A stretch of 64,000 bases of DNA from an uncultured Ferrovum sp. Its GTDB lineage: Bacteria; Pseudomonadota; Gammaproteobacteria; Burkholderiales; Ferrovaceae. The stretch is taken from contig CAIVUX010000019.1 of NCBI GenBank assembly GCA_903909215.1, positions 1-64,000 of the forward strand, read 5' to 3'. Under the pieces are notes generated by a model. That model did not search any database. It was given only the letters and a program-made list of their open reading frames with translations, and was not told the origin of the DNA. Positions 3,369-54,341 of this stretch are shown piece after piece (position 1 is the first letter of the stretch; each line of letters starts with the position of its first letter). The position numbers were made by a program, and so were the translations under genes.

Positions 3369-4187
3369 CTAGGCCATTGGCTCGGTGAGTTTGTTGCGCT
3401 CAATGAGGGCGTAGGCAGAATGGTTGTGAATGGATTCAAAGTTTTCTGACTCCACTATGTAGGCATCAATGCGCGGTTCTAGGTTAAGCTTATGCGCCAC
3501 ATCGCGTACCATATCTTCCACGAATTTGGGATTATCGTAAGCGCGCTCGGTAACCCACTTTTCATCAGGACGTTTCAGCAAGCCAAATAATTCGCAAGAA
3601 GCCGATTCTTCTGCAATGCGAATGATTTCTTCAATCCAGATAAACGCATTGACGCGCGCGGTAATGGTGATGTGAGAGCGCTGATTATGTGCGCCATAAT
3701 CGGAGATACCTTTTGAGCATGGGCATAGGCTGGTTACAGGGACCAACACCTTAACAGTGAACGTTTGTACGCCATCAATAATTTCACCCACAAAAGTGAC
3801 ATCGTAATCAATGAGAGACTTCACCCCGGAGACCGGTGCGGACTTGTTGATGAAATAGGGAAAACTCATTTCAATGTTACCCATGCGCGCTTCTAGGCGT
3901 TCCATCATTTCAGATAGCATGGCACCAAAAGATTCCACAGAAATTTCCCGCTCTTCGCGATTAAGAATTTCTACAAAGCGCGACATGTGCGTGCCTTTAA
4001 AATCTTGCGGCAACTGAACATACATATTAAAAGTAGCGATAGTGCTCTGCGCGCCGCCTGCAGCGCGGTCGGATACCCGTATGGGGTGGCGAATGCCCTT
4101 AATCCCTACGCGATTAATAGCAATTTTGCGCGTATCGGGGGTAGCCTGTACATCCGGAATGGGATTCTGTGGGCCGGGTGCGTTCAT
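3369..4187 (-). CDS. folE2: GTP cyclohydrolase FolE2 (type IB)
   Basis: Converts GTP to 7,8-dihydroneopterin triphosphate, the first step toward folate and queuosine. It is the FolE2 (COG1469) form, unrelated in sequence to FolE (272 aa). Family hallmarks are [17 protein letters not shown] near residue 55, the Cys-containing metal-site segment [20 protein letters not shown], and [18 protein letters not shown] with conserved Glu/Cys. It is the last gene of a minus-strand run xseB-ispA-dxs-folE2, 35 bases after dxs. FolE2 can use metals other than Zn in studied relatives; nothing in this sequence indicates which metal is used here, and no Zur-type operator is visible in the short upstream gap. 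Confidence 0.95.
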
Positions 4188-4222
4188 GATAACTCCTGTG
4201 GAATGAATTAAAGTTGTAAGGT

Positions 4223-6112
4223 TTAGGCTTGGCTTACGCTATTGCGAAAGCCTGATGCAAAAATTTTCCGTTCTTCGATGGAGCGGCGAATACCAGCCGC
4301 ATCTAAACCGCATTCGGCTAATAGGCGGGCGGGTTCGCCTTGGTCCACAAAGCGATCGGGCAGGCCCAGCTGCAATAATGGCACGCTCAGCATTTCGCGC
4401 GCTAACAATTCTGCCACCGCACTACCTGCTCCCCCTTGAATGGTATTTTCTTCCACTGTCACCAGTAAATCGTGACTAAGCGCCAATTGAATCACCAATG
4501 CGTCATCCAAGGGCTTCACAAAACGCATGTTCACCACCGTGGCGTTTAGCGCCTCGCCAACCTCTAAAGCGGCGCTAAGTGGTGCACCAAAAGCCAGAAT
4601 TGCAACAGCGCGGCCTTGGCGCCGCACTTCGGCTTTGCCCACAGGCAGTGCGTCAAGCTGTTGGACAATGGAAACCCCAGGTCCGTTCCCGCGTGGATAA
4701 CGAACGGCGCTCGGGCCATTAATCCCAAAAGCGGTGGTCAGCATTTGATGGCATTCGTTTTCATCCGCCGGGGCCATGATGGTCATGTTGGGCAAACAGC
4801 GTAGGTAGGACAAATCAAAACTGCCTGCATGGGTGGCTCCATCGGCGCCCACCAAGCCTGCGCGGTCGATGGCCAGTACTACAGGCAAATTTTGCAACAC
4901 CACATCGTGAATCAGTTGGTCGTAGGCACGCTGTAAGAAGGTGGAATAGATGGCCACCACAGGCTTCAGTCCTTCGCAGGCCAATCCGGCTGCAAATGTA
5001 AGAGCATGTTGTTCGGCAATACCCACGTCAAAGTAGCGATCAGGATAGAGCTCGGAAAACTTAACCATACCCGAGCCTTCGCACATGGCCGGGGTAATAG
5101 CCACCAAACGTTTATCTGCTGCAGCCATAGCGCATAGCCAATCGCCAAATACCTGTGCGTAACTGGGTTTTGCTGGGGCCGCTTTAAGAACAATGCCCAC
5201 CTTAGGGTCGAAGGGCGATACGCCGTGATATAAGATGGGGTCGGCCTCCGCAGGTGCGTAGCCGTGTCCTTTGCGCGTCACCACATGGAGAAATTGCGGA
5301 CCTTTTAAGCGGCGCACGTTGCTTAATGTAGAAACCAGCGTATTGAGGTCATGGCCATCAATAGGTCCGATGTAATTAAAGCCAAATTCTTCAAACAAAG
5401 TGGAGGGTGGATTCACCATGCCCTTCATGTGTTCTTCCCAACGCTTAGCAAATTCTAAAATCGGTGGCGCCACGCCCAATACTTTTTCACTACCACGCCG
5501 CACGCTGTTGTACACCCGACCCGACATGATGCGTGCCAGATGATTTCTCAGCGCTCCCACAGGGTGTGAAATCGACATTTCATTGTCATTTAAAACAACC
5601 AACACATTGGCGCCTGTATTGCTGGCGTTGTTCATGGCTTCGAAAGCCATGCCGCCTGTAAGCGCGCCGTCACCAATAACCGCCACCGCACGCCGCTCGG
5701 GGTCAGTGTGTTTAAAAGTAGTAGCCATGCCCAACGTGGCACTAATAGAAGTGCTGGAATGCGCCGTACCAAAGGCGTCATATTCACTTTCAGAACGACG
5801 CGGAAACCCAGATAACCCGCCTTTCATGCGCAAGCGCGCCATGTCCTCGCGCCGACCAGTTAAAATTTTATGAGCATAGGTTTGGTGCCCCACGTCCCAT
5901 ACCAAACGATCCTCTGGGGTATTGAAGGTGTAGTGCAAGGCAATAGCCAATTCTACCGTGCCTAAATTGCTGGACAGATGGCCGCCGGTGCGAGCCACTG
6001 ATTCAATAATGAATTGGCGCAGTTCTGCCGCCAAGGGCTCTAACTCGTGCCGATCCAGGGCGCGCAATTGGTGCGGCCATTGAATCTGATCCAGCAGAGG
6101 AGTGTGGGACAT
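4223..6112 (-). CDS. dxs: 1-deoxy-D-xylulose-5-phosphate synthase
   Basis: Thiamine-diphosphate enzyme condensing pyruvate with glyceraldehyde-3-phosphate, the entry step of the MEP isoprenoid pathway (629 aa, full length). The TPP/Mg motif is [16 protein letters not shown] near residue 150, continuing to LNDNEMSIS. The pyrimidine domain carries DVGIAEQHA, with the catalytic Glu, and [15 protein letters not shown]. The C-terminal transketolase domain ends normally. It lies 12 bases after ispA, whose enzyme consumes the IPP/DMAPP this pathway makes; with ispE at 27 kb, at least two MEP genes are in the window. Confidence 0.97.
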
Positions 6113-18620: not shown

Positions 18621-18652
18621 TGGGGTCAGACCCCGGGTGGGGTCTGACCCCA
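18621..18652. repeat. Inverted pair of 13-mer repeats (R5)
   Basis: GGGGTCAGACCCC at 18622 and GGGGTCTGACCCC at 18639 (17-base period, spacer GGGT), two bases after the coaE stop and 38 before the zapD start. Confidence 0.9.
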
Positions 18653-19445: not shown

Positions 19446-19835
19446 CTCGTCGCGCTGAGCGATCAATGCGGCCCAATCGGCACGGGTGGTAACAAGGCCT
19501 ACCCCCACTTCATCAGCGTAATCAAAAATAGTGGTTTTGCGAATAGAGGCTTCAACAGAGGCTACCCGTGCATCGTCAAAGCAATGGCCCACCAATTCGT
19601 GCAGCAGGTCTTCAATAAGCTCCACATGGTCGCGGGCAGACCAGCTTTCAATGAAGCGGTAAATGGGTTCGTAATCCACTGTGTCGTGCAAGGATCGGAT
19701 GCGGCGCATGGCACCAAAGGGAACGTGCAGAATGACGGACACCAAAACCTCTTGGGGCGCTATTTTTTCAAAATCGTAAACACCCAAGCGAACCGCACAG
19801 CGGACGTTTTTAACAATGCATTGGTAGTGGCTCAT
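19440..19835 (-). CDS. Dihydroneopterin aldolase family protein
   Basis: FolB/FolX-family protein (131 aa), predicted to act on dihydroneopterin or its triphosphate in pteridine metabolism. The T-fold shows IVKNVRCAVRLGVYDFEK near residue 7, including the aldolase-type start of the fold, and DTVDYEPIYRFIE. The usual substrate Glu/Lys positions are hard to place by eye, so FolB versus FolX cannot be settled. Its ATG overlaps the rpoH stop (ATGA), so it appears to be co-translated with rpoH. Confidence 0.8.
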   Translation of the reverse strand: MSHYQCIVKNVRCAVRLGVYDFEKIAPQEVLVSVILHVPFGAMRRIRSLHDTVDYEPIYRFIESWSARDHVELIEDLLHELVGHCFDDARVASVEASIRKTTIFDYADEVGVGLVTTRADWAALIAQRDEL

Positions 19836-20695
19836 GCCGTAGATTCAATGGCGGCACGTAGTTTTTGTAAGGCGCGGGCTTCAATTTGACGGACGCGTTC
19901 TGCTGAAACGCCCAATTCGGCAGATAGTTCATGCAAAGTGGCCGCAGCGCTCTCGCCTTGTAGCCAGCGCGCGGTAATAATGCGGCGGCTGCGCTCATCA
20001 AGGCTCACCAATGCCTGGCGTAGGCCCTCAGTACTCAAGCGCTCTTCTTGAAGAGCCTGTAGCTGTTGGGCGGGTTCGGCGCCCTCATCGCTTAAGTAGG
20101 CGATCGGGCTGACCCAATTCTCGTCTTCATCGTTAATGGGTTGTAAGGAGATGTCCTGACCTCCTAAGCGCATTTCCATTTCGCTGACATCCTCCGGACG
20201 CACCCCCAATTGGCGCGCCACTTCTAGGGTTTCGCGCGGGGTTAAGGAGGCAAAGCCTGTTTTGTGACTGCGCAGACCAAAAAACAGCTTGCGCTGGGCT
20301 TTGGTGGTGGCAATTTTGACCAAGCGCCAGTTGCGCAGCACATATTCGTGTATTTCGGCCTTAATCCAATGCAGGGCGTAAGACACCAGACGCACACCGC
20401 GTTCGGGGTCGAAGCGCCGCACGGCTTTCATGAGACCCACATTGCCTTCTTGAATAAGGTCTGCCTGAGGAAGGCCATAGCCGCTGTACTGACGGGCGGT
20501 GGAGACCACCAACCGCAGATGAGAGAGAATCATGCGTTGCGCGGCTTCAAGGTCGTTGTGATCGCGCAGGCGACGGCCCAAGTCCAACTCTTCCTCAGCG
20601 GTAAGCATGGGAAAGCGGGAAACGGTTTGAATGTAATGCTCCAAGCTGCTGGCATTGGCCAGAACGGGCAAGGGCAGGCTAATTCCATCCATCAT
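19832..20695 (-). CDS. rpoH: RNA polymerase sigma-32 (heat-shock sigma factor)
   Basis: Sigma factor that directs RNA polymerase to heat-shock promoters (287 aa from ATG 20695). Region 2 is DLIQEGNVGLMKAVRRFDPE, the RpoH box is QRKLFFGLR, and region 4 holds AELGVSAERVRQIEARAL. GGGAG lies 7 bases before ATG 20695; a TTG at 20713 is less likely. Follows ftsX in the ftsYEX-rpoH arrangement also known in E. coli, but has its own promoter overlapped by a CIRCE operator (20725-20751), pointing to HrcA control. No hrcA gene is in the window. Confidence 0.97.
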   Translation of the reverse strand: MMDGISLPLPVLANASSLEHYIQTVSRFPMLTAEEELDLGRRLRDHNDLEAAQRMILSHLRLVVSTARQYSGYGLPQADLIQEGNVGLMKAVRRFDPERGVRLVSYALHWIKAEIHEYVLRNWRLVKIATTKAQRKLFFGLRSHKTGFASLTPRETLEVARQLGVRPEDVSEMEMRLGGQDISLQPINDEDENWVSPIAYLSDEGAEPAQQLQALQEERLSTEGLRQALVSLDERSRRIITARWLQGESAAATLHELSAELGVSAERVRQIEARALQKLRAAIESTA

Positions 20696-20721
20696 TCTTC
20701 TACTCCCTAACAAGAGATTTT

Positions 20722-20751
20722 ATTTTAGCACTCTAAAGATTGGAGTGCCAA
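20722..20751 (-). promoter_or_regulatory. rpoH promoter overlapped by a CIRCE operator
   Basis: Read on the plus strand: TTAGCACTC (20725-20733), nine bases, GAGTGCCAA (20743-20751). The CIRCE consensus is TTAGCACTC-N9-GAGTGCTAA, so 17 of 18 arm positions match. On the minus strand TTGGCA (20746-20751) and TAAAAT (20722-20727), 18 bases apart, make a sigma-70 type promoter for rpoH. HrcA bound to the dyad would cover its spacer and both hexamers. The operator ends 29 bases before the rpoH start. Confidence 0.88.
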
Positions 20752-20778
20752 TTCTCTCAATAGTTCAGAAAAAAATCT

Positions 20779-21681
20779 TTAACGGGACCGTGGTAAGTAA
20801 GCGGTTACTGACACGTAAGCGGCTATCCAACCGAGAATTCCTGTAATCGCTTCGCAGAGCAGAAGCTCTTTAAGGGCAAAGGGCTGCAAGTGAAAATCAA
20901 GACCAAAAAGAGGGGTTAGGTCTGTCAATAGGCCGTTTAAAAGGTGAATACCTAGGGTTGCAAGGCCTAAGGCTGCAGCGGCTCCCAAAAGACCTTGTAG
21001 AAAACCAAAGTACAAAAAGGGGCGGCGAATGGTGGTGCGGGTGGCCCCCATAAGGTGCGACACCTCCAGCTCATCCCGCGCTGATAATATTTGCAGCCGA
21101 ACGGTATTCACAATAACGGCCCATAAGGCCAAGCCCATCACCAGTGCCACGCCCATCACCAAGTGTTGACCAAAGACCAGCAAGGCCGCTAAACGGTGTG
21201 CCCATTCGCTATCCAATTGCACCCGTTCCACTTTGGCCCAGCCCGAGAACTCTTGACGCAAAGCCTCTAGTTGGTTGGGGTCAGCGCTTTTGGCCGTCAC
21301 CACGAAAGTATGGGGCAATGGGTTTTTATCCAACACGCTAAGGGCCTCTGCCAAACCGGGTGCAGCCTTCATTTCAGCCAAAGCCTCCTCACTGGAAATG
21401 TAGCGCACAGACTGCACGCCGCGCTGGGCTTGCAAGGAGTCCCAGGTGCTGCGAACCGTTATCAAGTCGGCGTCCTGGGCCATGAATATCGTGATATGAG
21501 GCTCATGCAGCACGCTGCGCCCCAGAGTTCCGGCTTCATTAATGGCGTGGTACAGCCCCACGGGCAGGCAGAGGGTGGCGCCAATCACCAAGATGGCCAA
21601 CAAGCTTCCCACGGGAGAGCGGGACAGCCGCGTGAGGGCGTTGCGCAAGGCCCGGCCATGCTGAATAAACCAAGACATCAT
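20779..21681 (-). CDS. ftsX: Cell division protein FtsX
   Basis: Permease-like partner of FtsE; the complex sits at the septum and activates peptidoglycan hydrolysis through periplasmic partners. 300 aa with an N-terminal cytoplasmic stretch, one helix near residue 25 (SLLAILVIGATLCLPVGLY), a periplasmic domain (about 50-165), and three further helices after residue 170. Overlaps ftsE by 4 bases. Two adjacent start codons (MMSW); the first is used here. Confidence 0.95.
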   Translation of the reverse strand: MMSWFIQHGRALRNALTRLSRSPVGSLLAILVIGATLCLPVGLYHAINEAGTLGRSVLHEPHITIFMAQDADLITVRSTWDSLQAQRGVQSVRYISSEEALAEMKAAPGLAEALSVLDKNPLPHTFVVTAKSADPNQLEALRQEFSGWAKVERVQLDSEWAHRLAALLVFGQHLVMGVALVMGLALWAVIVNTVRLQILSARDELEVSHLMGATRTTIRRPFLYFGFLQGLLGAAAALGLATLGIHLLNGLLTDLTPLFGLDFHLQPFALKELLLCEAITGILGWIAAYVSVTAYLPRSR

Positions 21682-22364
21682 GTGGCAAACTCCGCGGAAT
21701 TGGTTTCAGAGTCGCCACCCAAGCGTCCGTCCTCCAGATGGAGAATACGAGTGGCGTAATGCGATAAGGCCACTTCATCATGACTTGCGATGACCAGCGT
21801 GACGCCGGCTTGATGAAAAGAGCGAAAAATATCCAAAATAATGCGTGCGTAGTGCGGATCTAGCCCCCCTGTGGGTTCGTCGGCCAGCACCAAACGGGGG
21901 CGGTTTACAATGGCGCGTGCAATACAGACCCGTTGCTGCTCACCGCCGGAGAGCGTAACGGGGTTGGCTAGCGCCTTATCGCTGAGACCGACTTTTTCTA
22001 GGGCGGCCCCCACGCGGCGCTTCATATCATCGCCATAACTCCCAGCCAAGGTTAGGGGCGATGCGACGTTCTGCCAGACGTTGCGATCAAACAGCAGGCG
22101 ATGATCTTGAAACACCAGACCAATATTTTGACGCAAGCGAGCCAAAGCCGTATTGCTCAGCTGACGCAAGTTTTGACCATTAAGCAACACCGCCCCTGAG
22201 CTCGGTCGTTCAATGCCCGCCATCAGTTTGAGCAGCGTGCTTTTTCCAGCACCCGAGTGTCCGGTGACAAATACCATCTCACCGGCTTCAATATCTAAAC
22301 TCACCCCACTTAAGGCCTCATGGCCATCGGGGTAGCGTTTAACAACGGCATCCAGACGAATCAT
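21678..22364 (-). CDS. ftsE: Cell division ATP-binding protein FtsE
   Basis: ABC-type ATPase (228 aa) that drives FtsX. Walker [10 protein letters not shown] at about residues 35-43, signature [14 protein letters not shown], Walker [13 protein letters not shown], and switch His in [10 protein letters not shown]. It overlaps ftsY by 4 bases upstream and ftsX by 4 bases downstream, so the three genes are tightly coupled. Confidence 0.96.
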
Positions 22365-54294: not shown

Positions 54295-54341
54295 GGGGTC
54301 AGACCCCGTAGGGGGTCTGACCCCCTACGGGGTCTGACCCC
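54295..54341. repeat. Triple palindromic 13-mer repeat (R10)
   Basis: Copies of GGGGTC(A/T)GACCCC at 54295 (A), 54312 (T) and 54329 (T): exact 17-base period, spacers GTAG and CTAC, which are reverse complements of each other. Sits in the 109-base gap between phoB and phoR, where alternative hairpins could affect how much phoR is made relative to phoB. Confidence 0.9.

Follow-up and report, generated by a model that had tools for sequence, protein, structure and literature searches.

A predicted HrcA off-switch within the putative promoter of the sigma-32 gene rpoH in an uncultured Ferrovum sp.

Heat-shock control is usually told either as the work of a repressor (HrcA, acting at its operator CIRCE) or as that of an alternative sigma factor (sigma-32, the product of rpoH). 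The closest described case of the two systems meeting is a CIRCE element predicted upstream of rpoH in Geobacter sulfurreducens, at position -51 (PMC545781, 2004, available to us in part). The P3 promoter of E. coli rpoH is sigma-E-dependent, and SigE of Bordetella bronchiseptica drives in vitro transcription from the fam (rpoH) promoter (both from the accessible part of PMC3490749). As to HrcA itself, GroE stimulates its binding in Campylobacter jejuni, and the C. jejuni protein loses binding on heating (PMC8533110, accessible in part). In the portions of the literature at hand, we found no description of CIRCE at rpoH in beta- or gammaproteobacteria, part of which may be reported by Permina and Gelfand (2003), a study of both groups by its title, nor of an overlap of CIRCE with sigma-70 and sigma-E elements at rpoH. 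CIRCE at rpoH was likewise not mentioned in the accessible parts of PMC10490939, PMC3135505, PMC3490749, PMC5493296 and PMC8533110, or in those of PMC11764788, PMC3989490, PMC3557214 and PMC9866376. In the stretch of DNA analyzed here (64,000 nucleotides, hereafter the window), a predicted HrcA operator appears to form an off-switch within the start site of rpoH.

The rpoH gene lies on the minus strand (19832 to 20695, with the first in-frame ATG at 20695) and was identified by its match to TIGR02392 (387 bits; cut-off 323) and to PRK06596. Its upstream neighbor is ftsX (20779 to 21681, minus strand), the match of which to FtsX_Gneg fell just under the cut-off (252.5 versus 255 bits), preceded by an ABC ATPase gene (21678 to 22364) that we read as ftsE by eye from its translation; the order ftsE-ftsX-rpoH is that of E. 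coli. The 83 bases separating ftsX from rpoH (20696 to 20778) hold a probable Shine-Dalgarno sequence, AGGGAG, recognized by eye at 20703 to 20708 (minus strand), and a CIRCE dyad at 20725 to 20751. Read in the sense of rpoH, from 20751 to 20725 on the minus strand, the dyad is TTGGCACTC-CAATCTTTA-GAGTGCTAA, with a spacer of nine bases; on the plus strand it reads TTAGCACTC-TAAAGATTG-GAGTGCCAA. It agrees with the CIRCE form TTAGCACTC-N9-GAGTGCTAA at 17 of 18 arm bases and in spacing, and the dyad that the first-pass annotation had described in these terms, with one mismatch in 18, is thus real. The dyad was the sole CIRCE match at up to three mismatches within the 64 kb, where 0.01 would be expected, and shuffling of upstream regions (at most 300 nt long) gave 14 of 18 arm bases or more in only 2 of 2660 cases, against a score of 17 in the window; the two figures rule out a chance dyad. 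The assignment as an operator also draws on the presence of CIRCE before rpoH in 55 of 56 related genomes (see below).

A promoter scan of positions 20600 to 20900 returned a single candidate (0.2 expected), TTGGCA-N18-TAAAAT on the minus strand from 20751 to 20722, matching at 10 of 12 bases and carrying a TG before the -10. This agrees with the extended -10 form of sigma-70 promoters (a TTGACA-like hexamer, 16-18 nt, TGnTAnnnT). The -35 hexamer TTGGCA (20746 to 20751, minus strand) is made of the first six operator bases, while the extended -10 TGCTAAAAT (20722 to 20730, minus strand) takes its first six bases from the operator end and leaves AAT outside; in other words, the left arm supplies the -35 and the right arm the TG and TAA of the extended -10. 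The operator had earlier been placed in the spacer of this promoter, which is correct as far as it goes, but it extends over the entire -35 and into the -10, of which it takes in the first three bases. By its sequence, the operator is part of the putative rpoH promoter, beyond filling its spacer. The distance from the -10 to the first in-frame ATG is 26 bases, and not 27 as initially given.

The genome from which the window derives (1.53 Mb in 51 contigs, 99.85% complete) also encodes HrcA. A profile search for hrcA, one of the checks proposed by the first-pass annotation, found a single copy (202.6 bits for a cut-off of 22.2; E 5e-60) in an open frame of 342 residues. The second check, a search for further CIRCE sites, found one more, before groES-groEL, bringing the sites at up to three mismatches to two (groESL and rpoH); at the same stringency none was found at hrcA or dnaK in this genome. 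The gene order around hrcA is hrcA, a ferrochelatase-like gene, grpE, dnaK and dnaJ, all names besides hrcA being read from translations; the ferrochelatase-like gene occupies positions 3941 to 5047 of locus L005, by eye on its translation. Sigma-32-type promoter scores of 12 to 13 occurred nine times in loci L004 and L005, on both strands. One candidate, CTTGAAA-N12-CCCTTACA, precedes the groES CIRCE (L004, 2004 to 2031) with a score of 12 and is plausible by placement only. We do not claim autoregulation of rpoH by sigma-32, the best upstream match (12 of 15) lying inside ftsX. As a separate observation, a palindrome-like 13-mer, GGGGTCAGACCCC, recurs in 19 copies over the 64 kb (0 expected), for instance at 1562 to 1608, 18622 to 18651 and 54295 to 54341, and in many cases as inverted pairs 17 bases apart. 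Further copies stand before groES (L004, about 1938 to 1969) and before grpE (L005, about 5084 to 5115). The element looks like a REP-type repeat family.

To score the site in other genomes, we called it present when a CIRCE with at least 14 of 18 matching arm bases lay within 300 nt upstream of an rpoH profile match. In a set of 61 genomes made of this one and 60 relatives, 56 had rpoH over the cut-off, and 55 of these, our genome included, carried the site. All 27 genomes of the same family with rpoH over the cut-off had the dyad, the conservation in near relatives that the first-pass annotation had set as a test. The exception among the relatives, G050, was without the site, hrcA, any exact-core CIRCE and any RpoE match. 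The site was also present in 77 of 80 named loci, the titles of which are mostly betaproteobacterial and in some cases 'Proteobacteria' only, and two of which (L066 and L067) seem to duplicate contigs of genomes G019 and G021 of the relatives set. Two Cupriavidus records, L071 and L078, are among those with the site. Of the three named loci without it, L120 holds only 63 bases upstream of rpoH, and in the two from Nitrosospira (L072 and L099) hrcA is present and a GGGAACTT box stands before rpoH, with CIRCE in degenerate form only. A class-wide sample comprised 85 genomes, ours and 84 from outside its order; of the latter, 76 were examined (75 with rpoH over the cut-off and G093, with a split match), the other eight having none over the cut-off, and 52 of the 76 had the site. 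The overlap of HrcA and sigma-32 control had been linked to betaproteobacteria; the arrangement described here is found there and reaches well past them. Outside the class, the site was present at none of the 28 rpoH genes examined, though 25 of the 28 genomes have hrcA; the 28 were drawn from 32 same-phylum genomes with a match over the cut-off, out of 68 searched. RpoH and HrcA of Agrobacterium, which stands outside the class, reportedly have 'differential and independent roles' according to the title of a paper; independent roles fit the absence of the site there. Two further genomes of the survey showed peculiar arrangements. Upstream of rpoH of G070 (L221), a second GAGTGCTAAAAT half stands just before the CIRCE, as if from overlapping operators or a duplication, and G092 has two rpoH genes over the cut-off (L204 and L206), one with a CIRCE matching at 17 of 18 bases and one without.

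The site was mostly found together with the gene for its predicted repressor. In the relatives set it was found in 54 of 54 genomes with hrcA; hrcA was not detected in the other two, of which G031 (74% complete) carries the site and G050 does not. In the class sample it was present in 47 of 51 genomes with hrcA versus 5 of 25 without (Fisher's exact test, 3.6e-10, taking genomes as independent). The four genomes with hrcA and no site were G132, G086, G097 and G073; the five with the site and no hrcA comprised three incomplete genomes (G065, 62%; G098, 81%; G093, 86%) and two near-complete ones (G135, 99%; G076, 97%). Among 18 further members of the class drawn from the phylum sample, two of them from our genome's own order, the site occurred in 3 of 3 genomes with hrcA and 0 of 15 without. 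In a quickly built RpoH tree (77 rows), the state of hrcA changed at least six times and that of the site at least eight times; the tree omits 27 of the 76 class genomes (G065 as an incomplete genome, the others for want of a full-length sequence), and both states of its E. coli row were set by hand. The co-loss of hrcA and site was not significant on this tree once corrected for ancestry, since the starred branches leave one independent pair, with which a sign test cannot reach significance.

We compared the operators before rpoH with those before groES so as to tell promoter signals apart from HrcA signals. One rpoH site per genome was aligned with 20 bases on each side (107 sites, 55 from the relatives set and 52 from the class), against 49 groES sites from 48 of 70 screened loci, the 22 loci that lacked the GroES motif used for screening having been dropped. 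The rpoH sites read A-A-T just past the operator, and the T, the final position of a -10 hexamer that begins with the three terminal operator bases, was present in 105 of 107 rpoH sites (50/52 in the class, 55/55 in the relatives set) versus 7 of 49 groES sites (Fisher's exact test with genomes taken as independent, 3e-28), and in 76 of the 77 named loci. A GAAC starting at -15 or -16 relative to the operator was seen in 77 of 107 rpoH sites versus 0 of 49 groES sites (6e-20, same test and same assumption), and T and A stood together at operator positions 9 and 11 in 48 of 107 versus 0 of 49. The preference of HrcA alone was rejected as the source of this signature, spacer and flanks differing between the two kinds of site. 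Conversely, the dyad might have been kept for the promoter elements in its arms (TTRGCA and TGCTAA) and not for HrcA binding, a reading to which the survival of the -10 half in some genomes without hrcA (G116 and G137, for example) lends some support. We regard it as very improbable: the inner arm positions (6-8 and 18-20) belong to neither the -35 nor the -10, yet are 96-100% conserved in the 107 sites, only 5 of the 25 class genomes devoid of hrcA have the site, and none of the 28 rpoH genes from outside the class does.

The GAAC box belongs to what may be a second promoter overlapping the operator. Sigma-E promoters have the form GGAACTT-N16-TCTGA. The window holds TGAACTA at 20761 to 20767 (minus strand), agreeing with GGAACTT at 5 of 7 bases and with its first base 16 before the operator, followed 16 bases later by TCCAA at 20740 to 20744 (minus strand), inside the operator, where the consensus of the set is TCTMA. 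This TGAACTA-N16-TCCAA is a weak copy, with a C as third base of its -10, of an element that is strong in the set; as a lone match TGAACTA is not above chance, but it sits at the conserved offset. When offsets from -60 to -7 of the rpoH sites were scanned, the mean match to GGAACTT rose to 4.4 of 7 at -16, compared with 2.8-2.9 at the neighboring offsets and 0.9-2.0 elsewhere, and operator positions 7-11, 16 bases past that box, read TC-T-(A/C)-A, of which positions 9 and 11 belong to the N9 spacer. The best sigma-E-like promoter was located at -16 or -17 in 20 of 77 named loci, at -28 to -31, ending just 5' of the operator, in 13 (Burkholderia-, Cupriavidus-, Bordetella-type and others), at -12 to -14 in 6 and elsewhere in 6; in the remaining 32 none reached the threshold of 9/11, which 3.9% of 300-nt shuffles attain. 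An rpoE gene is present in our genome (G000:C28:31555-32127; 317 bits, cut-off 236) and, over the curated cut-off, in 54 of the 61 genomes of the relatives set, ours included. Four of the other seven keep the GAAC box without RpoE over the cut-off (G013, G015, G016 and G024; 92, 65, 98 and 85% complete, respectively), which counts against the sigma-E reading unless rpoE was missed; G015 and G024 show short partial RpoE matches.

HrcA might repress the sigma-70 promoter only, with the GAAC and TCTMA boxes a relic of an ancestral sigma-E promoter that is unused in our genome. The imperfect boxes of the window (5/7), the 32 of 77 named loci without a clear sigma-E-like promoter and the failure of the two boxes to covary significantly in the rpoH set (Spearman 0.17, p 0.08) speak for this restricted role, which we nonetheless hold to be unlikely given that the upstream box stands at one offset in many families, that rpoE is present and that the window has GAAC at the conserved place. 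We consider it likely instead that a composite promoter, about 46 bp long, lies between ftsX and rpoH, at which HrcA would gate sigma-70 transcription of rpoH and, where present, overlapping sigma-E transcription; gating of the latter is probable. From sequences, positions, conservation and gene presence, we infer HrcA binding, repression, the start sites and the use of RpoE. The interpretation first put forward, that of an HrcA operator acting on rpoH, is supported by the presence of hrcA and the conservation of the dyad in the family, repression itself being predicted.

At normal temperature, HrcA bound to CIRCE would cover the -35 of the sigma-70 promoter and the greater part of its -10, as well as, where it exists, the -10 and start region of the overlapping sigma-E promoter, so that both routes to rpoH would be shut. 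Upon titration of GroE by unfolded protein, or unfolding of HrcA itself, HrcA would leave, and rpoH and groESL would be freed together. Sigma-32 would then drive further heat-shock genes and raise the chaperones, GroE included, whereupon HrcA would be restored by GroE feedback. HrcA would thereby act on groESL both directly and via sigma-32, and in our genome, where neither hrcA nor dnaK has a CIRCE within three mismatches, rpoH would be its link to the DnaK machine.

E. coli rpoH is under the control of an RNA thermometer. If the same held here, rpoH would be controlled mainly after transcription and the part of HrcA would be minor, a reading that we judge improbable. The leader expected from the predicted promoters is short (about 20-38 nt), and the RNA from 20715 to 20500 folded no better than shuffles (z +1.44), in the absence of which unusual fold a thermometer at the 5' end was rejected.

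Some genomes without hrcA retain pieces of the composite promoter. In G137 the left arm is intact, the right arm shortened and TGCTAAAAT kept; in G062 a perfect GGAACTT-N16-TCTCA accompanies broken arms; in G116 the -10 half is kept. Judged on these sequences, the three look like operator decay over kept promoter boxes. The broader expectation that the sigma-E promoter was kept wherever hrcA was lost was not borne out: among 21 rpoH upstream regions with neither hrcA in the genome nor CIRCE, just 2 had a sigma-E-like promoter at 10/11 or better, and the mean best score was 8.0 versus 7.7 in shuffles. HrcA over a fused sigma-70/sigma-E rpoH promoter may have been the ancestral heat-shock wiring of Gammaproteobacteria in the GTDB sense (beta and gamma), the hrcA-less lineages, E. 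coli among them, being derived by loss of repressor and operator, and some (E. coli, G062 and G137) keeping the sigma-E promoter at its old place. We put the chances of this slightly below even, having reduced them because the sigma-E promoter is not generally kept in genomes without hrcA. Were these proposals true, chaperonin load (through HrcA), envelope stress (through RpoE) and housekeeping transcription would be read at a single site of 46 bp; the scheme known from E. coli would then be one lineage's simplification and not the type case.

Compared with the known systems, the arrangement is common in related bacteria and absent from E. coli. In the latter, tgaactt-N16-tctga stands between ftsX and rpoH with the spacing seen here and fits the sigma-E form, its placement as P3 in the E. 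coli locus (L339) being our own reading; the CIRCE arms, by eye, are absent, and E. coli was not among the control genomes matched by the HrcA profile. The B. bronchiseptica fam promoter offers sigma-E-dependent transcription of rpoH, in vitro, in a betaproteobacterium, although 'HrcA' does not occur in the text of PMC3490749 (as available to us in part); in a Bordetella locus (genomosp. 4, L100), the sigma-E-like promoter, at offset -28, stops immediately upstream of the CIRCE. HrcA control at groESL shares the operator sequence and N9 spacing, but there the conserved outside bases lie just upstream of the operator, with no conservation of the T downstream, whereas the rpoH operator is part of the predicted promoter. 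G. sulfurreducens has the same operator before the same gene, in a single deltaproteobacterium and with neither promoter layout nor sigma-E overlap described in the part of PMC545781 at our disposal. CIRCE at rpoH is already in print, and what is new, as far as the accessible parts of these sources go, is the composite layout and its spread: in genomes of many families a predicted repressor operator is placed on the putative promoter of the sigma factor itself, and in many of these genomes it overlaps a likely point of entry for the envelope-stress sigma factor.
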